Assembly (NCBI GenBank): GCA_944323535.1
Contig: CALUSW010000014.1
Coordinates: 1 to 34,326 of the forward strand
DNA length: 34,326 nucleotides
Source of the DNA: Candidatus Gastranaerophilales bacterium
GTDB lineage: Bacteria > Cyanobacteriota > Vampirovibrionia > Gastranaerophilales > Gastranaerophilaceae
Direction: 5' to 3'
Of the stretch, positions 1 through 9,583 are shown piece by piece. The first letter of the stretch is position 1. Every line of letters begins with the position of its first letter. The position numbers were made by a program, and so were the translations under genes. The notes beneath the pieces were generated by a model, which saw only the letters and a list, made by a program, of their open reading frames with translations, ran no database searches and had not been told where the DNA came from.

Positions 1-80
1 TAAACTTCTGTTTATGTTTCAAGTTGTTTTATACAATCAATACAGTTTTTGTTACGAAAATAAAAAGGGAACTCATAAGC

Positions 81-290
81 ATGAGAACTCGTGAGGCATT
101 GCATGCCCGTATGATTGCAGGGTGTAAAGCTCGGCAGATCAAAGGGAAATCTAAACTGGATATACACAGAAATGATATACTTAAATTGATTAGCTTAGGT
201 GTGCCAAAAACCTTAATAGCAAAGCAATTTAATACGACACTAGATTATATTATAAATAAATTAGCAATATCTAAGCAAATTAAAAGATAG
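81..290 (+). CDS. Small HTH protein, recombinase-type helix-turn-helix
   Basis: A 69-residue basic protein. The frame stays open upstream to an ATG at 24, but the ATG at 81 has the better ribosome-binding site (AAGGGA at 65-70). The C-terminal half has the shape of the DNA-binding helix-turn-helix found at the end of serine recombinases and related regulators: a basic linker (KGKSKLD), a helix (DILKLISLG), then the helix-turn-helix core VPKTLIAKQF. No catalytic recombinase domain is present, so it is either a free-standing DNA-binding protein or the remnant of a recombinase. Positions 228-253 are identical over 26 bases to the right end of the dispersed repeat at 22546-22757. Its last codons overlap the 3' end of the opposing small RNA. 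The function is unknown. Confidence 0.55.
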   Translation: MRTREALHARMIAGCKARQIKGKSKLDIHRNDILKLISLGVPKTLIAKQFNTTLDYIINKLAISKQIKR

Positions 291-369
291 ATCCTCTGAA
301 CAACACACCATACCATTAAGGTACTGCTGGGATTACCCAACGTTGTTTTAGCCAGACGCTAATCTATCC
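282..369 (-). ncRNA. Candidate structured small RNA next to the DUF3800 gene
   Basis: The minus-strand sequence folds compactly. The outermost stem pairs 362-368 with 286-292 (GATAGAT/ATCTATC). Next comes a hairpin of 348-352 with 358-362, whose loop 353-357 can pair with 295-298 as a pseudoknot. This pseudoknot and the outer stem share only base 362 with the hairpin. A further stem pairs 342-347 with 299-304 (AACAAC/GTTGTT) and encloses two 4-bp hairpins (328-339 and 311-323). The outer stem is followed by four U residues (285-282), as in a short intrinsic terminator. A consensus promoter (376-404) puts the start at about 369, the first base of the fold. The RNA would be about 84-88 nt. From memory, Weinberg and colleagues (2017) described structured RNA motifs lying near DUF3800 genes. 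I cannot tell whether this is one of those families. Confidence 0.6.
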
Positions 370-375
370 ATAAAT

Positions 376-404
376 ATTATACACCATGCCTATTTTGTTT
401 TCAA
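376..404 (-). promoter_or_regulatory. Sigma70-type promoter for the small RNA
   Basis: On the minus strand the -35 box is TTGAAA (404-399), the spacer is 17 bases and the -10 box is TATAAT (381-376). The predicted start is G369. The -35 box lies inside the last codons of the DUF3800 gene, so the RNA can be made independently of the operon. Confidence 0.6.
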
Positions 405-1217
405 TCTTTTACTAAGTTTTCTTAAGAATTCGTTTATCCAAATATACTTTTCTTGCTCTAATATATCCGTATCACTTGGAAATAACTTTAAGCCATAACC
501 TAAACATTTTCCATTGTGAACAAATATATTGTTACTTAACTTCATATAATAATAAGGTTCAACATCTCCATCATATTGATTAGGTTCAAATGCTTGGTAA
601 GTTGAACTTGCAACTATATCTGCCAATTGTAAGCATTTTGACTGGCTCTTTGTCAAAGGTTTGATACTAAGCACGTATTGTTCACAATCGATAACCTTAC
701 GAATATATGTTTCTAATTCATCATAATGAGTGTTTCTACGGTGTTCAAAAATAAAATTAGCCTTAGCTTTTTCGCTCTTTAGATATATAGTTACTTTTTC
801 TAGCAATAGTTTGCATGCATAATTATATAGCACGGACTTAACCTGTAATGCCCCTTTTAACATCTCCTTTTGAAACACAACAGAGATAACTGTAAAATCT
901 CTAAATTGCTCTAACCGATTTACGCATACTTTCTTTTTCTCGTGAGACATTTTGTAGAAATGCAGGGGTGCTAATATATCTTTTTGCTGGTATTTAAGTA
1001 TTTTCTTAATATCATTTACAATGCTTGCTAATTTCTGGTCTAATTCTTGTCTAACAATAATAGCAGATAATACAAAGAATTTACTACTCCCTCGCCCTTT
1101 ACCGCATTCAAACTTAAAACCTTCGTCTCCAGCTTCATCTATATATACATTATAATTAATTTCTGCAATCTTTCCTGCTTCCATACCATTAGTGTATATA
1201 AACAAATGGTTATGCAC
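390..1217 (-). CDS. DUF3800 domain protein
   Basis: A 275-aa protein with the hallmarks of the DUF3800 family: an early acidic strand YIDEAGDEGF (D27, E28, D31), a following hydrophobic strand FVLSAIIV, and a C-terminal LQLADIVASS with D200. These acidic positions suggest an RNase H-like metal-binding site, which is family inference. No biochemical role is established that I can name. The start is GTG at 1217 with AAAAGG 12 bases upstream. An internal ATG (residue 12) lacks a ribosome-binding site. It follows the specificity-subunit gene by 32 bases on the same strand, so it is probably the third gene of the restriction-modification operon. Its 3' end carries the -35 box of the small RNA. Confidence 0.8.
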   Translation of the reverse strand: MHNHLFIYTNGMEAGKIAEINYNVYIDEAGDEGFKFECGKGRGSSKFFVLSAIIVRQELDQKLASIVNDIKKILKYQQKDILAPLHFYKMSHEKKKVCVNRLEQFRDFTVISVVFQKEMLKGALQVKSVLYNYACKLLLEKVTIYLKSEKAKANFIFEHRRNTHYDELETYIRKVIDCEQYVLSIKPLTKSQSKCLQLADIVASSTYQAFEPNQYDGDVEPYYYMKLSNNIFVHNGKCLGYGLKLFPSDTDILEQEKYIWINEFLRKLSKRLKTK

Positions 1218-1249: not shown

Positions 1250-2347
1250 TTAAATTCTATCACTGTATGGCAAAGAATTAATGTAATCTTCCATAAATTG
1301 CCAATCAGGAATATAACCCTTTTCAGAATAGGTATAATTATCATCTATAATTGGATTTCCGTTATTGTCTCGTTGGATGGGAAGTCTTAAAATTAAATTC
1401 GGTAGTGTTTTATTAGCTTGTCTTCCATATGAGTATCTGTATTGATTTGAAAACAACACGGTACTTATAAACATTTTAACTTTAATGCTGATATCTTCTT
1501 TTGATATTAGCAAATAAAGGTCTCTACCGCTGTAAAACGGTCTTTTTTGTACGAAAGTTGATAGTACACTACCACCGCCAGCAACAGTTATCGTTTCTGC
1601 GGGTTGAGGTTCTCTCCCTTCAATCTTCTTTACATATGCAGATATGCCATTATTGTCTGCTGTTCTTGCAACAAAAGCAATCCCTTCAGGGTCATCAGAA
1701 GTGGTTTCTATGCATGTATTTAACTCCAAATTGATACCATATTTGACTTCAAACAGACTAGAAACAGTAAATTCTTCCCATTTATCTATTTCCAATTCTT
1801 TTGCATGACCTGATTTAACTTTGGTTGTAATAGGTTTGTGGTGTAATGACTTTATGTAATCTTCCATAAACTGCCAGTCTGGGATATAACCTTCATCAGA
1901 ATAAGTCCTGTTTTCATCTATAGTAGGTGTATTATCTTCATTGTGTTTAATAGGTAGTTTTACAATAATTTCTTTAGAGTCGCCTACACGACACTGCCTA
2001 CCATAAGACCATTTACCATTTTCATTGAATGTGATAATTGAAGTTAGAAACAGTCCTACATTTTGTGTCATTTTATATTTAGGTGCGAATATATTTGCAT
2101 CGCTTGTAGCACTAAAAGGTTTCCCTTGATAGAATGCTTTACATTCAACTTTGCCAGTTACAATTTTATTCTCACTAAAGTCAGGTGGTAAATCTATCAT
2201 CTGCCCAACACCATTATTTGTTGCAGAAGCTGACACATAAGGTGTTGTACCATATTCATAGTCATCAGAACTGTAATAGTTCCCAGCACATATATCAAAT
2301 AATCTTGTTACATTAAACTCTTTCCAGTCTTGTACATTTAATTCCAT
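1250..2347 (-). CDS. Restriction-modification specificity subunit (BcgI B-like / HsdS)
   Basis: A 365-aa two-domain specificity subunit that should set the DNA target of the adjacent nuclease-methyltransferase. It has two similar halves, each beginning with a W-x-E-F-x-V-x-x-L-F segment (residues about 8-17 and 190-199) and ending in the conserved stretch GYIPDWQFMEDYI. Each half contains a target-recognition domain. The length is close to the roughly 340 aa of the BcgI B subunit. The start ATG at 2347 is two bases after the stop of the upstream gene, and its ribosome-binding site (AGGGG) lies inside that gene's end, so the two are translationally linked. The near-identical half-ends could allow exchange of recognition domains by recombination. 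Confidence 0.85.
   Translation of the reverse strand: MELNVQDWKEFNVTRLFDICAGNYYSSDDYEYGTTPYVSASATNNGVGQMIDLPPDFSENKIVTGKVECKAFYQGKPFSATSDANIFAPKYKMTQNVGLFLTSIITFNENGKWSYGRQCRVGDSKEIIVKLPIKHNEDNTPTIDENRTYSDEGYIPDWQFMEDYIKSLHHKPITTKVKSGHAKELEIDKWEEFTVSSLFEVKYGINLELNTCIETTSDDPEGIAFVARTADNNGISAYVKKIEGREPQPAETITVAGGGSVLSTFVQKRPFYSGRDLYLLISKEDISIKVKMFISTVLFSNQYRYSYGRQANKTLPNLILRLPIQRDNNGNPIIDDNYTYSEKGYIPDWQFMEDYINSLPYSDRI
1282..1352 (-). repeat. Intragenic repeat in the specificity gene (partner at 1855-1925)
   Basis: The segment coding for the end of the second half of the specificity subunit is repeated, with scattered mismatches, at 1855-1925, exactly 573 bases (191 codons) away. Both copies encode the Y-I-P-D-W-Q-F-M-E-D-Y-I block. 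It marks the duplicated two-TRD architecture. Confidence 0.7.
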
Positions 2348-2349
2348 CG

Positions 2350-4305
2350 TTATCCCCTGTTATCATCTTCATATACATTACCTTCTTTTACAAGGTAGGA
2401 TAAGTAGTTATTAAGTGTACGTTGAAAATCATCTGCTGTTAATTTGGTATAATCTGTTTTCATATACGCTTCACATAACCATTCATCATCAGCAGTAACT
2501 CTTTCTACAGCTGATTTCCCATCGACTACAGCTTTTTCTTCATATAATTTCAACCATTCTTCTTCAATACTTTTCCACTTAGAAATTGTGAAGTTTCCTT
2601 TCTCATCTTTAATAAACTGTTCAACACGTCCTAAGTTCTTTTTCTTAACAAATCCATCATCTTTACAGTAACCAAAAAATGTGCTTCTTGTTGTACCGTC
2701 AGGCTTTATATGAGGTTGTCCCAGTGTAAATAGCATACAACAAGCACAAACAGAAGAACCGGGATAGAATATTTCAGCAGGTAGAGAAAATACGGCTTCC
2801 AGAGTATTATTTTTAAGCAACACTTCTTTTTCTTTAGTAATAAGACTGCCTGTTCCTATAGCACATGCAAGAGGCAATAAAACCGCTAACTTTACAGGTT
2901 TAGGTTGGTCACCATTTTTAATTTTTTCATCATTGAGTTCTTTAATGACATCGGAAAAGTAGTGGACAAAAACCAGTCCTTTTGTTGGGTCTTCTTTACC
3001 ATCTTTTGCTTTACCCCAATCATTTTTATAGGAATTCGGTATGCTTCTGGGTTTTGCGTTATAAGGCGGATTCATTAAAATGATATTCGGGTCCGCTTCT
3101 TTTATAAACTGTTTATAGTCAAAGCAACTACCGAGTTTGATATTAGAATTCCCGTCACCATGAATCAACATATTAGTGACCGACAAACCAAACGCTTTTT
3201 CTTCAATTTCAATACCATATATATTATTCTCTTTAACATTTTGTTGAAGTTTTTGAATTTCATTAGTTGAAAGATTTGGTTTCTTACAGTCTGCTAATTC
3301 TTTAACCATAGCCTGCACTAGGAAAGATGCACTGCCGCATGTCCCATCCAAAACAACTTTATTACAGTCTACTTCTGTTAATCTACACATAAATTCTGTG
3401 ATATGGTCTGGTGTAAAGGCTTGGTTCTTATCAGCTTTGCCAGTGTACTTATTGAAGGCAATAAAGAACAAGTTTAAAATATCCTGCCCTTCTGAACTGT
3501 TAGTATCTATATATTTATAGATATCCATAAGGATAGTATCTATAATTTCAATCCAATCTTCTTGTTTAAGAGCTTTTACTTTCTGATTCTCTAATACATT
3601 CTTTTGCAGTAATTCAATCTTTTTACTCTTGTTATCGGAGCCATCTAATAATTCTGTTAATGTACCTTTTATGCCGGCAATAATTTGGGTTGCAGACATT
3701 AATTTTAAAGCTTTATTAACTTGTTGTTTTGTTTCTTCATTAATTTCTGTTATTTCTAGTTTTTTGAGTAAATCTTTAATATGAAGTAATACTGTACCGA
3801 CAAACTGACTTCTAAGAACTTCAGCAATATCTTTCTTGTGTAATAATTCATTTAAGGCATAGGTATTCTTTAAAACCCGTTCTCTATCATTCTGTCTATT
3901 AAAGAAGAACAATGATTTATAATATTCCATTGTTCCTAAAACAGTTTCTTCTTTAAGAAAATTATCGGCATCAATGAATGATTTCCATACTCTTATCTTG
4001 TCATTTTTAGTATTCGCAAGAATACAGATAACTTTCTTCCCTGGATGCAATGCTCTTTCTTCTTCAAGGTACTCTGCCAGTTGTTCAACATCAGAATCAA
4101 CAAAGTTCTGTTTCGTTTCAATCAATATGACAAAGTCATCATCTTCAAGTCTTATATCTAATTTAAAGTGGTTAAAGCAATGTCCAAGAGCTTTTTCCAA
4201 CTTTGCTTTAGAACCAGCTTCAACTACATAACTATATTCTCCACCCTCTATATTGGTCGTAAGATATTTACTACCAATTCTCTCTATCATATCGTGTCTG
4301 TTCAC
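2350..4305 (-). CDS. Fused restriction nuclease / N6-adenine methyltransferase (BcgI A-like)
   Basis: With the chosen start this is a 651-aa polypeptide combining restriction and modification. Near the N-terminus a D...E-x-K pattern (D50, E63, K65, in the strand FVILIETK) looks like a PD-(D/E)xK nuclease site. A helical region follows, then a gamma-type N6-adenine methyltransferase: SAM-binding motif DGTCGSASFL from residue 320 and catalytic NPPY at 412-415. One chain with nuclease and methylase plus a separate specificity subunit is the layout of BcgI-type (type IIB) systems; BcgI A is about 640 aa. GTG at 4305 is preferred because AGGAGA lies 8 bases upstream. A TTG at 4338 in the same frame would add 11 residues but has no comparable site. 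No separate HsdR or helicase gene is present. Confidence 0.8.
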   Translation of the reverse strand: MNRHDMIERIGSKYLTTNIEGGEYSYVVEAGSKAKLEKALGHCFNHFKLDIRLEDDDFVILIETKQNFVDSDVEQLAEYLEEERALHPGKKVICILANTKNDKIRVWKSFIDADNFLKEETVLGTMEYYKSLFFFNRQNDRERVLKNTYALNELLHKKDIAEVLRSQFVGTVLLHIKDLLKKLEITEINEETKQQVNKALKLMSATQIIAGIKGTLTELLDGSDNKSKKIELLQKNVLENQKVKALKQEDWIEIIDTILMDIYKYIDTNSSEGQDILNLFFIAFNKYTGKADKNQAFTPDHITEFMCRLTEVDCNKVVLDGTCGSASFLVQAMVKELADCKKPNLSTNEIQKLQQNVKENNIYGIEIEEKAFGLSVTNMLIHGDGNSNIKLGSCFDYKQFIKEADPNIILMNPPYNAKPRSIPNSYKNDWGKAKDGKEDPTKGLVFVHYFSDVIKELNDEKIKNGDQPKPVKLAVLLPLACAIGTGSLITKEKEVLLKNNTLEAVFSLPAEIFYPGSSVCACCMLFTLGQPHIKPDGTTRSTFFGYCKDDGFVKKKNLGRVEQFIKDEKGNFTISKWKSIEEEWLKLYEEKAVVDGKSAVERVTADDEWLCEAYMKTDYTKLTADDFQRTLNNYLSYLVKEGNVYEDDNRG

Positions 4306-4360
4306 AATAATACTCTCCTGCAATGTAAATTGTAGCAAGGGAAACAGTTATGGTCTATAT

Positions 4361-4631: not shown

Positions 4632-5072
4632 TTAAGAGGCTGATTGAACTAAATTTGTAGCCGGTATTAGTGGTCTTAAAATACCAATCATCCCTTCTGC
4701 CGCAATATCGTTTATTATTTTTCCTTCGTCATTAAAATAATAAAAATTCATAACAGTAGTTTTAATTTTTACACCCGACGCTTTAATGCCCATAAATTCA
4801 CCGTCATGAGTCCCCGTTAATGTCCAGCGGACAGCCGCTTTATTTTCATCAGCTACTATTTCATCAAGTTTCCATTGAACATCGGAAAATCCCTTCCTCA
4901 TCCAATAAACAACGGATAAATAGCCTTTACCTCCATATAACGGTTCGGGTGACGCAGGTGTATAAAAAGAAGCTTTTTCAAAAATTAATTCTTGTGCCAG
5001 CTTCTCATCACACGTATTAATCATAGTTTCAAATTTCTGCATTGTTTGTTTATTGCGATTAATTTTATTCAT
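4632..5072 (-). CDS. SnoaL-like / NTF2-fold small protein
   Basis: A 146-aa protein resembling the SnoaL-like cyclase family (NTF2-like alpha-plus-beta barrels that bind small molecules). Typical features are an N-terminal helix around a short acidic segment, the strand pattern AAVRWTLTGTHDGEFMGI and the following GVKIKTTVMNFYYF. The frame continues upstream to 5126, but the ATG at 5072 has AAGGAG just before it, so the shorter form is chosen. It lies 22 bases downstream of the emrB-like gene and is probably the last gene of the efflux operon. Family members range from enzymes to non-catalytic binding proteins, so no substrate is proposed. Confidence 0.65.
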   Translation of the reverse strand: MNKINRNKQTMQKFETMINTCDEKLAQELIFEKASFYTPASPEPLYGGKGYLSVVYWMRKGFSDVQWKLDEIVADENKAAVRWTLTGTHDGEFMGIKASGVKIKTTVMNFYYFNDEGKIINDIAAEGMIGILRPLIPATNLVQSAS

Positions 5073-5094
5073 AAAACTCCTTTTGAATATCATA

Positions 5095-6648
5095 TTATAA
5101 ATCTTTTTTCTTATCCGTATTAACATTTAAGAAAAAAGCAAGCGGAATCAAAATAAAAGCAATTAAAGCAAATATCGCAAATACATCTACATATGCCATT
5201 AAACGCGATTGGGTTAAAAGAGATTTATATAAATACATATTGGTTTTTATATCGGCAAAAGTACTTGATGAATTTGACATAAATGTATTTGCCAGTGCTG
5301 CAAATTTCTGCTGAAAGATAAGATTAAAATCAGATAAATTTTTAACCAGATATACCTGATGTATCTGTGAATGACGTGCCACCAAAGTTGAAGCTACGGA
5401 AGCAATAATAGCGGTAACTGCACTTTTGCATAAATTATGCAGGCTTGCTCCGTTAGATAATTCCGATTTAGGCAGTGTCCCAAGAACAAGTGCCGATACG
5501 GGAATAAAAACGAGTATAACGCCAACGCCCATAAGAACCTGAGGTATTGCTACATAAATAAAAGAAATTGACAGATTTATGTTAATAAAAAACAGAATGG
5601 AAATTCCCAAAAAGAAAAAGCCTAAAGCAATAAGTATACGATTATCAAAAATCTTCATCAGGGAATTAATAAATATCATCATTAAAACACATGATATTAT
5701 TCTCGGGGATAAAACATAACCGCTTAATATTGCGGTATAACCCATCATATTTTGTAAAAATTGCGGTAACAGTACAATTGTGGAAAATACAAGCATATTA
5801 ACAGAGGAACTTAAAATTGTCCCTATAAAAAAGTTTTTATCTTTAAATAACCGGAGATTAATTAAAGGATTTCTGCATTCTAATTCACGTACAATAAAAA
5901 ATGCCAAAGAACATGCCGAAAATCCTGCAAGCCATGAAATCCAGGCACAATCAAACCAGTTATACTGCTGCCCTTTATCCAAGACTATTTGCATTGATAA
6001 AAGCCACAAAACAAGAGCAATCATACCCGGGAAATCAGTTTTTCCGACTTTTTTACGGATTTCCTGATCTTCTATATTTGCATGTATTAAAGAAACAGAT
6101 AATATCCCCACAGGAATATTAACAAGATAAATCCACTGCCAATCGGCATTATCCACAATAAAGCCTCCGAAAGTAGGTCCGAGAATGGCAAACACCATAA
6201 CTGCGAGTCCGTATAAGCTCATTGCAATGCCTTTTTTATCCGGAGGAAAAGCAGCAAGCAAAATTGCCTGTGAAATAGGTGTCATAGGTCCTCCGCCTAT
6301 TCCCTGAATTAAACGTCCCAAAACCATTATATTAAGGTTTGATGCAATTGCGCATATTAAAGAGCCTATTGTAAATATAGTTATAAAAACTTTTAAAAGC
6401 AGTGTTCTTCCCATTAAATTTTCAAGCCAGCCCGACATTAAAATTAAACAGGCATTTGCTATCATATAAGATGTAATAATCCAGTTTGCCTCATCAATAG
6501 TAGAGCCAAAATAGCCTGATATATGAGGAATAGCAACATTTGTAGCAGAAGTCGCAAGACATGCAAATGATGTAGGTAAAAGGATTGATAAAGCTACAAG
6601 CCATAACGGTGAATGATGATGCCTTGAAATAACAACAGCCTGCTGCAT
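5095..6648 (-). CDS. emrB: DHA2-family multidrug efflux permease (EmrB-like)
   Basis: A 517-aa inner-membrane major facilitator with the length and hydrophobic pattern of 14-helix DHA2 drug:proton antiporters such as EmrB. Family motifs are visible: LILMSGWLENLMGRTLLL (motif A region), GRLIQGIGGGPMTPISQAIL (motif B region) and AILGPTFGGFIVDNADWQW (motif C region). The ATG at 6648 is one base after the stop of the upstream membrane-fusion gene, so the two are translationally linked. With that adaptor and the divergent TolC-like channel it should form a tripartite pump across both membranes. The exported substrate cannot be read from the sequence. Confidence 0.9.
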   Translation of the reverse strand: MQQAVVISRHHHSPLWLVALSILLPTSFACLATSATNVAIPHISGYFGSTIDEANWIITSYMIANACLILMSGWLENLMGRTLLLKVFITIFTIGSLICAIASNLNIMVLGRLIQGIGGGPMTPISQAILLAAFPPDKKGIAMSLYGLAVMVFAILGPTFGGFIVDNADWQWIYLVNIPVGILSVSLIHANIEDQEIRKKVGKTDFPGMIALVLWLLSMQIVLDKGQQYNWFDCAWISWLAGFSACSLAFFIVRELECRNPLINLRLFKDKNFFIGTILSSSVNMLVFSTIVLLPQFLQNMMGYTAILSGYVLSPRIISCVLMMIFINSLMKIFDNRILIALGFFFLGISILFFININLSISFIYVAIPQVLMGVGVILVFIPVSALVLGTLPKSELSNGASLHNLCKSAVTAIIASVASTLVARHSQIHQVYLVKNLSDFNLIFQQKFAALANTFMSNSSSTFADIKTNMYLYKSLLTQSRLMAYVDVFAIFALIAFILIPLAFFLNVNTDKKKDL

Positions 6649-6649
6649 A

Positions 6650-7648
6650 TTATTTAACCTTTACCTCCGGCACAACAGACATACCGGGAACTATATTATA
6701 ATTTGAAATATCTTCTTTAAATATAATTTTTACCGGAACTCTTTGAACAATTTTGACATAACTTCCGACGGCATTTTCAGGCGGAAAAAGACTTTGTCTT
6801 GCACCGGTTGAACGCTGGATACTGTCTACTTCTCCCTTAAATTTCTTACCTGAATATGTGTCTATTTTTATGGATACAGGCTGCCCTTTTTTCATATTCG
6901 CAATCTGTGTTTCTTTAAAATTGGCAACCACCCACATTTTTTCGGGAACTATTGCAAATAAAGGCTGTGCAACCTGAATATAATTACCTTCTTCTACTGT
7001 TCTGTTTGTAATCATCCCGTCTTGCGCCGCATAAATTTTTGTATATGAAAGGTTTAATTCATCCTGTTCAACTTCTGCTTCAAGCCTTTTTATTGAAGCG
7101 TTAATCTCGTCATAAGCTGCTTTTGCAGAATTATTATTTGACTGCGCAGCTGTTAATTTATTTTTGCTTGCGTCATAATCTTGTTTTGAAGATATGCCTT
7201 TTTTATACATTTTAGAATAACGTTCATAATCTGCCTGAGCAAAATCCAAATCGGAAAAGCTTTTAATAACCTGATGTTCAGAATTTATAAGAGCTGCTTT
7301 TGCTTCTTCCAGTTTCGCTTTTGTTTCTTTTAATTTTGCTTCATAATCATTCGGATCAATTTCAAGCAATAAATCACCTTTTTTTACCTCCTGATTATCT
7401 TCTATGTTTAAATGCAATACGATACCCGCCACCCTTGGCGCAACGGTTATAACATGCCCTTCTACAAAAGCATCGTCTGTTGATTTGTAATATACGGAAT
7501 GTATAGAATAAAAAATTCCGCAGATTAAAAACACAATTGCGGTAATGCTTGGAACAAGTACTCTTTTTTTCTTATATTCAGGACGATTGTCCTCTTGTTC
7601 CGTTTCACTCTCTTGTGTTATTTGTTGTTCCGGCTTTTTATCTTCCAC
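6650..7648 (-). CDS. emrA: Membrane-fusion adaptor of the efflux pump (EmrA/HlyD family)
   Basis: A 332-aa periplasmic adaptor anchored by one N-terminal membrane segment (residues about 29-52). The family segment STDDAFVEGHV follows, then the first half of the lipoyl/barrel domain, a long charged helical hairpin (about 95-195), and the second half with DGMITNRTVEEGNYIQ. It bridges the EmrB-like permease to the outer-membrane channel. The start is GTG at 7648 with AAGGAG six bases upstream. It lies 12 bases after marR and one base before emrB, clearly in one operon. Confidence 0.9.
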   Translation of the reverse strand: MEDKKPEQQITQESETEQEDNRPEYKKKRVLVPSITAIVFLICGIFYSIHSVYYKSTDDAFVEGHVITVAPRVAGIVLHLNIEDNQEVKKGDLLLEIDPNDYEAKLKETKAKLEEAKAALINSEHQVIKSFSDLDFAQADYERYSKMYKKGISSKQDYDASKNKLTAAQSNNNSAKAAYDEINASIKRLEAEVEQDELNLSYTKIYAAQDGMITNRTVEEGNYIQVAQPLFAIVPEKMWVVANFKETQIANMKKGQPVSIKIDTYSGKKFKGEVDSIQRSTGARQSLFPPENAVGSYVKIVQRVPVKIIFKEDISNYNIVPGMSVVPEVKVK

Positions 7649-7660
7649 TTTTATCTCCTT

Positions 7661-8119
7661 TTAAATTTGTAGTTTAACTTTATCCCTTATATTCATGTTC
7701 ATTTTTTCAAGTGTAGCAAATGTAATTGCGAGTTCTTCTTCCGAAATATTGTTTGTTATCATATTTCGTAATTCAATATCGGTCGGAAATACTTTATCTC
7801 GTAGTTCTTTGCCCTTTTCGGTAACTATAAGTTTATAAATTTTTCTTCCGTTAGAATCCGGTATTTTTTTTATAATATTTTTTTTCTCTAAAATTTCTAT
7901 AATTCTTGAAATATTGGCTCTGTCTTTTAAAGTTATTTCAGCAAGCTGTCTTTGGTACATTATTTCATCATTTTCCAACAGCAGATTTAATATAACATAC
8001 TGATCAGGAGTCAATTCAAATCCTCTGTCTGTAAATGTTTGTGTTGATAATCCTCTTATAAAAGTACCGGTAATATAAATTAGTGCACCAATTCTGCCCT
8101 TTAAATATTCTCTGTACAT
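7661..8119 (-). CDS. MarR-family transcriptional regulator
   Basis: A 152-aa winged-helix regulator. The centre carries the MarR DNA-binding region: LTPDQYVILNLLLENDE (first helices), QRQLAEITLKDRANISRIIE (recognition helix) and the wing DSNGRKIYKLIVTEKGKE. Such proteins usually repress their own operon and an adjacent efflux gene and release DNA when a ligand binds. It is the first gene of the marR-emrA-emrB-SnoaL-like operon and divergent from the TolC-like gene. The perfect inverted repeat at 8149-8176 lies over the shared promoter region and is the likely operator. Confidence 0.9.
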   Translation of the reverse strand: MYREYLKGRIGALIYITGTFIRGLSTQTFTDRGFELTPDQYVILNLLLENDEIMYQRQLAEITLKDRANISRIIEILEKKNIIKKIPDSNGRKIYKLIVTEKGKELRDKVFPTDIELRNMITNNISEEELAITFATLEKMNMNIRDKVKLQI

Positions 8120-8148
8120 TTTTGTTTTACCTTGTTTACATTATAATA

Positions 8149-8176
8149 TTCTTGTGCTGTAATTGTAGCACAAGAA
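8149..8176. promoter_or_regulatory. Candidate MarR operator
   Basis: A perfect inverted repeat of two 10-bp arms (TTCTTGTGCT and AGCACAAGAA) separated by 8 bases lies in the 78-bp gap between the divergent marR and tolC-like genes. A TATAAT on the plus strand (8142-8147) and one on the minus strand (8145-8140) sit beside it, so a bound repressor would cover the tolC-like start site and the upstream part of the marR promoter. Confidence 0.7.
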
Positions 8177-8197
8177 AAAATTTGGGAATACATAATT

Positions 8198-9583
8198 ATG
8201 AAAAAAATTCTTATATGCTTATTAATATTTACATTTCTGGTCTTTCCTGCATATGCCAAAAAGAAACAAAATGAAAATGAACATGCAAAAGAAACCGTTC
8301 AATATATGAATCTTGAATGGTGGTCAAACTATAAAGACGATATATTAATACAGCATTTAAAAAATCTTTATGAATCAAATTATGATTTAAAAAATGCAGA
8401 ATTAAAAATAAAAGAAAATGAAAAACTTGTTAAAATTCAGTTTGCAAATGAACTGCCGCAATTGACTTTTGACGGATATATAGCAAGGGATTTGCGCTCT
8501 TCTGTTCAAAGATACGGAAATATGGTTATTCCCAGCTATGCCCAGAATAATTTTCAGCTGCCCTTAACGGCTAGCTATGAAATTGATATATGGGGAAAAA
8601 ACAGGTTAAAAACAAAAAGCACCGAACAATATCTGGAGATGGTTAAACAAGCGGAAAGAGCAACTTATATTGCTTTAACCTCCGATTTTACGGCAGAATA
8701 TCTTAACCTTATAAAATGTGACAAGCTTTTGTCTATCCAAAATGAACTTATTGATATTCAAAAAGAAATTACAGCAAAAACGCAGGATAAATTTGAAACG
8801 GGGCTCGCCTCCGTTAATGAACTTTATGCCGAACAAAAAATGCTTGCTGCAATGAAAGAAGAAAAAAATAATCTTGAAGAAAAACAAGAAGTATTGATAA
8901 ATTCTCTCCGTGTATACCTTTCAAAAGGAGATGGAGAAATTGAAAGAAATAATTATGAAAATCTCACTTTTCTTGAGAATATTCCAGAAAAAATCAACTC
9001 GGATATTATTGAAAACAGACCTGATTTTATTATGCAGGAAGCAAATATTAAACGTGCGGGATATGATGCTAAAATAGCAAAAAAAGAATTATTGCCGAGT
9101 ATTATTGTTTTTGGTCAAATCGGATTGAATGCATACAGACTGGACAGTCTTTTTAACAGATATTCACAATTTGTTAATGCGGGAGTTATGCCTTCTTTTG
9201 ATATATTTTCGGGCGGAAGAAAAATGGCTTTTTTAAAATTGAAGAAATTTCAATATGACGAAGCTTTAAATAACTATCAAAAAACTATTCTTGAAGATAT
9301 AAAAGAATTGAATGTAAGCCTGCAAGAATATAAAACGGCTAAGAAAAATTACGATGAAAGTATTGAACGTTTGAATCTTCAAACCAAAACTTATAATTTA
9401 ATACTGGATAAAAAAGAAATAGGTTCTGCCGCAGATATTGATGTTTTATATAATAAGGAAGATTTTTTGATTACTCAAAAAGATGAAGTTTCAAATAAAA
9501 TAAATTGTTTAATATCTGCTATAACTGTTTATAAAGCAGTAGGCGGGAAAAATCTGTATGAACTTTCCACAGATAATTTATAA
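8198..9583 (+). CDS. TolC-family outer-membrane efflux channel
   Basis: A 461-aa protein with an N-terminal signal peptide (residues 1-20, cleavage after AYA) and no lipobox, so a non-lipidated outer-membrane factor. It shows the duplicated helical organisation of the family, for example LPLTASYEIDIWGKNR in the first half and AGVMPSFDIFSGGRKMAFL in the second, with long amphipathic helices between. It should be the exit duct for the divergent EmrAB-like pump. The gene shares its control region with marR. It ends just before a strong bidirectional terminator. Confidence 0.9.
   Translation: MKKILICLLIFTFLVFPAYAKKKQNENEHAKETVQYMNLEWWSNYKDDILIQHLKNLYESNYDLKNAELKIKENEKLVKIQFANELPQLTFDGYIARDLRSSVQRYGNMVIPSYAQNNFQLPLTASYEIDIWGKNRLKTKSTEQYLEMVKQAERATYIALTSDFTAEYLNLIKCDKLLSIQNELIDIQKEITAKTQDKFETGLASVNELYAEQKMLAAMKEEKNNLEEKQEVLINSLRVYLSKGDGEIERNNYENLTFLENIPEKINSDIIENRPDFIMQEANIKRAGYDAKIAKKELLPSIIVFGQIGLNAYRLDSLFNRYSQFVNAGVMPSFDIFSGGRKMAFLKLKKFQYDEALNNYQKTILEDIKELNVSLQEYKTAKKNYDESIERLNLQTKTYNLILDKKEIGSAADIDVLYNKEDFLITQKDEVSNKINCLISAITVYKAVGGKNLYELSTDNL

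Follow-up and report, generated by a model that had tools for sequence, protein, structure and literature searches.

A DUF3800-VII small RNA with its own promoter signal beside a predicted nuclease-like DUF3800 gene in a Gastranaerophilales bacterium

Introduction

Small RNAs linked to DUF3800 genes have been catalogued, and their function is unexplained. One such RNA lies in the window, i.e., the whole stretch of 34,326 nucleotides of contig CALUSW010000014.1 (Candidatus Gastranaerophilales bacterium) that was analysed here. Genes for an N6 methylase, a specificity subunit and a DUF3800 protein follow each other in this order on the minus strand, with the RNA coming last (Table 1). The locus raises the question of what this RNA is, whether it is a transcript in its own right and which of its neighbours it serves.

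Table 1. Features of the DUF3800 locus and of its RNA (positions in the window).
Feature	Position	Strand	Remarks
DUF3800-VII small RNA	281..368	-	about 88 nt; RF02967, independent covariance model, covariation
P1	368-362/286-292	-	part of DUF3800-VII RNA
C358-G294 pair in internal loop	358/294	-	part of DUF3800-VII RNA
P2	356-353/295-298	-	part of DUF3800-VII RNA
P3	347-342/299-304	-	part of DUF3800-VII RNA
Hairpin A	341-336/326-331	-	part of DUF3800-VII RNA
Hairpin B	323-320/311-314	-	part of DUF3800-VII RNA
-10 TATAAT	376..381	-	read directly; 7 nt before RNA position 368
-35 TTGAAA	399..404	-	read directly; overlaps 3' end of DUF3800 CDS
DUF3800 gene	390..1217	-	PF12686, 52.7 bits; predicted RNase HII-like fold
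DNA specificity subunit (Methylase_S)	1250..2347	-	neighbour outside core module; order kept in L092 and L095
N6-adenine methylase, type I M / type IIG-like	2350..4338	-	neighbour outside core module
Serine resolvase, C-terminal part	3..290	+	converges on RNA; cut off or degenerate at contig start

Results

Family assignment of the RNA

The RNA segment of the minus strand, submitted alone, matched the Rfam family RF02967 (DUF3800-VII) with 54.8 bits (E 2.9e-11, gathering cut-off 36.2), a score obtained with Rfam's own model on 95 nt only. The match was full length (model positions 1-90) with no non-canonical pairs. An independent covariance model, for which 24 further DUF3800-VII RNAs were used and the window and its relatives were left out, detected the same RNA with 58.5 bits (E 2.1e-12, filters off), the second-best match reaching 8.8 bits. 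On the strength of these two scores, the membership of the window RNA in DUF3800-VII is close to certain. It was found as a single copy in the genome (a draft of 1.9 Mb in 121 contigs), and its sequence displays no repeats and no visible guide.

The Rfam comparison proposed in the initial annotation gave this result once the stretch was submitted on its own. The DUF3800-VII RNA was detected neither in the scan of the whole window nor in that of a 301-nt stretch with E up to 10, and a search for RF02967 in 292 genomes of the phylum gave no match, which for the genome studied here is demonstrably a false negative. The empty scans had first led to the view that the RNA represented a new class, which was dropped after the matches to RF02967 and to the independent model. 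The likely cause of the misses in the whole-window and 301-nt scans is the speed filters. Filtered Rfam scans were thus seen to overlook a match lying 18 bits above the gathering cut-off. The window RNA has 41% GC in comparison with 46-71% for the non-Gastranaerophilales DUF3800-VII members used here, and AT-rich members are probably under-counted by such scans.

Structure of the RNA and its conservation

The RNA begins with P1, followed by an internal loop with the C358-G294 pair, P2, P3 and a three-way junction with two hairpins, and its minimum free energy has a z-score of -3.4. Covariation among DUF3800-linked homologues, a check put forward in the initial annotation, was evaluated in 29 DUF3800-VII sequences, where two-sided changes were present in 24 of 27 pairs. 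In this alignment, which was fitted to the structure and leans toward it, 92.3% of cells were paired, compared with 40-46% in slid alignments; the covariation score was reached by none of the shuffles. When only the Gastranaerophilales members were considered (n = 8), 11 pairs displayed two-sided changes and 99.1% of cells were paired. Between the window and L012, P2 changed in a compensatory manner from UCUG/CAGA to UUCG/CGAA, P3 from AACAAC/GUUGUU to UGCAAC/GUUGCA and one P1 pair from U-A to C-G. Invariant or nearly invariant unpaired bases were G357, AG 325-324, G309 and G293. Between the window and L007, L010 and L011, the RNA had 91-94% identity, whereas the values were 54-68% for the third codon positions of the gene and 35-48% for the 3' flank, which suggests that the RNA is under selection.

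Several parts of the initially proposed fold were confirmed: the outer stem corresponds to P1, the inner stem to P3 and the two small hairpins enclosed by the latter to hairpins A and B. The proposed pseudoknot was ruled out by the comparison with relatives. It relied on a 5-bp hairpin at 348-362, which assigned base 362 to two stems simultaneously; one to four of its five pairs were broken in the four nearest relatives, and pairing across the 29 sequences was limited to 45% of its cells, not above the slid controls. The complementarity of its loop (353-356) with 295-298 is genuine, but these bases form P2, a nested helix that was paired in 100% of cells, so no pseudoknot arises. The short U-run noted at the end of the outer stem is present in the window and its clade; self-termination is not a family trait because many other members lack the run.

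Promoter signal upstream of the RNA

The letters of the TTGAAA-17-TATAAT promoter described initially were confirmed, and the start of the transcript is expected near position 369. The -35 TTGAAA was also identified in L092-L095 and L088. In L012/L094, the promoter is located beyond the DUF3800 stop codon, and its conservation is therefore not explained by coding constraint. A sigma-70-like site was detected in most of 32 members, with the -10 hexamer mostly 5-9 nt ahead of the RNA. Relative to random positions in the same loci, the site had a median p of 0.0025 and a combined p of 8e-37, the latter being only indicative because related loci are not independent. The promoter signal is a family-wide feature, and the RNA is probably made from its own promoter.

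The DUF3800 protein

The initial annotation had placed a DUF3800 gene next to the RNA, in agreement with the PF12686 match, which spans nearly the whole domain and exceeds the Pfam gathering threshold of 21 bits. Alignment to relatives indicates that translation probably starts at the ATG at 1184 rather than at the GTG at 1217. The AlphaFold model of the protein (pLDDT 89.5) has an RNase H-type fold. The top matches among solved structures in Foldseek were RNase HII/H2 (E 3.7e-5 to 7.5e-4), the best being RNase HII 1eke (E 3.7e-5), at 11-14% identity and a TM-score of about 0.42-0.56. The DEAG stretch at D12-E13 resembles the DEAGRG motif of RNase HII, with the R-G of the latter replaced by D-E-G. 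Among 35 diverse DUF3800 members, D12, E13, Q182 and D185 were invariant, and G15, D16, H71 and K102 were near-invariant. The model predicts a nuclease-like protein with an RNase HII-like fold, and the conserved acidic residues would be in accordance with catalytic competence.

The searches of the PADLOC defence models, NCBIfam and PDB sequences with the protein gave no match, and the literature search found no biochemical function for the DUF3800 of PF12686. DUF3800 of Cas12a2-linked loci has been reported to have an RNase H fold in which the catalytic residues are rearranged (PMC10910872).

Linkage and orientation of the gene and the RNA

In the window, the RNA begins about 21 nt past the DUF3800 stop codon. 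RF02967 was also located just 3' of the DUF3800 gene in L016-L018, the closest plasmid/phage relatives of the protein. A search of viral contigs by protein alignment yielded 60 further DUF3800 loci; of the 40 that were scanned with Rfam, 21 had a DUF3800-VII match above gathering (18 of the first 20). Plasmids, phages and viral contigs together supplied 24 loci with such a match. Neither close relatives of the window DUF3800 protein nor the exact RNA core pattern were found in viral contigs.

The presence and orientation of the RNA were placed on a tree of 63 DUF3800 proteins. Across most of the tree the RNA was directly 3' of the gene, in nearly all cases within a range of -37 to +42 nt relative to the stop codon, the exceptions being L023, L058 and L091. 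The RNA was on the strand of the gene in the window clade (five members), L021 and L023, likewise in the distant L091, and on the opposite strand in the remaining RNA-bearing members. Both characters were strongly clustered on the tree (0 of 500 shuffles), with some deep branches open. Since the link between gene and RNA, the fold and the promoter signal persist through the change in orientation, the RNA probably acts in trans.

Several loci deviated from this arrangement. In L091 (700-4302, genome G105), a DUF2971 gene, a divergent DUF3800 gene, the RNA (2674-2763), a DUF4917 gene and an intact serine resolvase gene follow each other; this DUF3800 has 14% identity to that of the window, which places another subfamily beside the same RNA family. 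Weaker matches to the RNA model (26-44 bits, 115-137 nt), most of them 3' of a separate DUF3800 clade, were noticed in L044, L048, L054, L058, L065 and L066 and are possibly a variant with an insertion. In L023 (2001-4363), possibly an interrupted module, the DUF3800 match extends over 156 aa and then meets a stop, and the RNA lies 1.8 kb further downstream. The DUF3800-VII-like RNAs L086:154-242 and L087:1501-1589, which lie at contig ends with no DUF3800 gene visible, may be either orphan copies or assembly breaks.

Genomic setting and distribution

The initial annotation had connected the RNA with a restriction-modification operon. An operon of this kind is indeed present in the accessory locus, but it is not a constant component: among five close loci, it was found in three (window, L092 and L095) and was lacking in L093 and L094; the module is therefore DUF3800 plus the RNA, without the operon. 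L092 carries an intact resolvase, to which the fragment converging on the window RNA has 62% identity over 77 aa; a Resolvase domain was found in L092 and L091. Adjacent to the island, the region 4632-9583 contains an efflux cluster with SnoaL-like, MFS, HlyD and MarR genes (minus strand) and an outer-membrane efflux gene (plus strand).

A close DUF3800 homologue was present in 2 of 41 genomes of the same genus, including the genome studied here, and the RNA model R2 detected DUF3800-VII RNA in 8 of 383 genomes of the family. Restriction-modification genes, resolvases, phage integrases and S24/HTH repressors were among the neighbours of the module, in keeping with accessory cargo carried by prophages and islands.

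Discussion

The range of explanations is narrowed by the orientation change, the recurring promoter signal and the RNase HII-like fold, which together point to an RNA acting in trans alongside a nuclease-like protein. The best overall explanation, given roughly even confidence, is that the RNA is the dedicated partner, and perhaps the inhibitor, of a nuclease-like DUF3800 protein on prophages and accessory islands; for the mechanism of the pair, confidence is evenly balanced at best. A separately transcribed RNA, made from its own promoter, would act in trans, which the sequence data make highly probable, and would then bind the DUF3800 protein, which is likely. The bound RNA could hold the nuclease-like protein inactive until phage infection or loss of the element ended its hold, and the freed DUF3800 would lead to abortive infection or element maintenance; this inhibitory step and the release are proposed tentatively, with somewhat less than even confidence. 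A role of the RNA and the protein in defence or maintenance, as the initial annotation had supposed, is plausible.

The second choice, to be regarded as rather unlikely although sequence does not discriminate it from inhibition, is that the RNA serves as activating cofactor or scaffold in a ribonucleoprotein effector, which would depend on it for target recognition or cleavage, with no antitoxin involved. A scaffold would be in keeping with a single folded RNA that has its own promoter signal and (near-)invariant unpaired bases, and DUF3800 accompanies Cas12a2 in some type V loci with a suggested role in interference or crRNA handling (PMC10910872); however, no variable or guide segment is visible in the RNA.

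Regulation of the DUF3800 mRNA by an antisense RNA, in the manner of type I toxin-antitoxin systems, could be expected from the convergent position of the RNA in most relatives, with up to 37 nt of overlap with the 3' end of the gene. In the window clade, L021 and L091, however, the RNA is on the sense strand with the fold kept, and it cannot be antisense to the mRNA there, which makes this mechanism very unlikely. A role in cis, as a structured 3' UTR element or a terminator of the DUF3800 transcript, would agree with the window clade, where the RNA shares the strand of the mRNA and has U's at its end, but it is highly improbable given the opposite strand in most relatives, with the same fold and promoter signal, and the missing U-run in many members. 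Neither is favoured as a general mechanism because the orientation varies between clades. Equally improbable is a service of the RNA to the neighbouring resolvase or restriction-modification system instead of DUF3800: the converging resolvase gene (window, L092 and L091) and the operon could speak for it, but neither neighbour is constant, whereas the RNA has a DUF3800 gene beside it at all Gastranaerophilales loci that could be resolved and at almost all of the viral and plasmid loci examined; most loci were recovered via the protein, but L091 via the RNA. A chance fold or artefact, for which only the empty whole-window scan could be cited, was ruled out with near certainty by the score above the curated cut-off and the extensive covariation.

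Comparison with known systems

The window RNA shares with RF02967 the pairs, the GCG and CAG signatures, the length, the position 3' of a DUF3800 gene and the upstream promoter-like site. It differs from most DUF3800-VII RNAs in its location on the gene's own strand, its Gastranaerophilales host and its being overlooked by routine filtered scans, a case in which such scans miss AT-rich members. The RNA class and the protein domain are already known, and what is new is a divergent, same-strand member.

The preferred model of inhibition resembles type III toxin-antitoxin systems (ToxIN), as it, too, would couple a small RNA to a nuclease. ToxI consists of tandemly arrayed 36-nt repeats which form pseudoknots; it is located ahead of toxN and is co-transcribed with it (PMC5772629). 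At the loci described here, one nested RNA follows the gene, on either strand and with its own promoter signal, and the predicted protein is RNase HII-like; in place of the tandem-repeat pseudoknot RNA upstream of the toxin that is expected of type III systems, there is a single nested copy 3' of the gene. With RNA-protein toxin-antitoxin pairs, the proposed mechanism would be shared, but the RNA here would be single-copy and separately transcribed. DUF3800 and its RNA may, as a tentative proposal, represent a new class of RNA-controlled RNase H-fold effectors borne by prophages and islands, in which a structured, separately transcribed and orientation-exchangeable RNA would switch the nuclease off (or on) in defence or maintenance.
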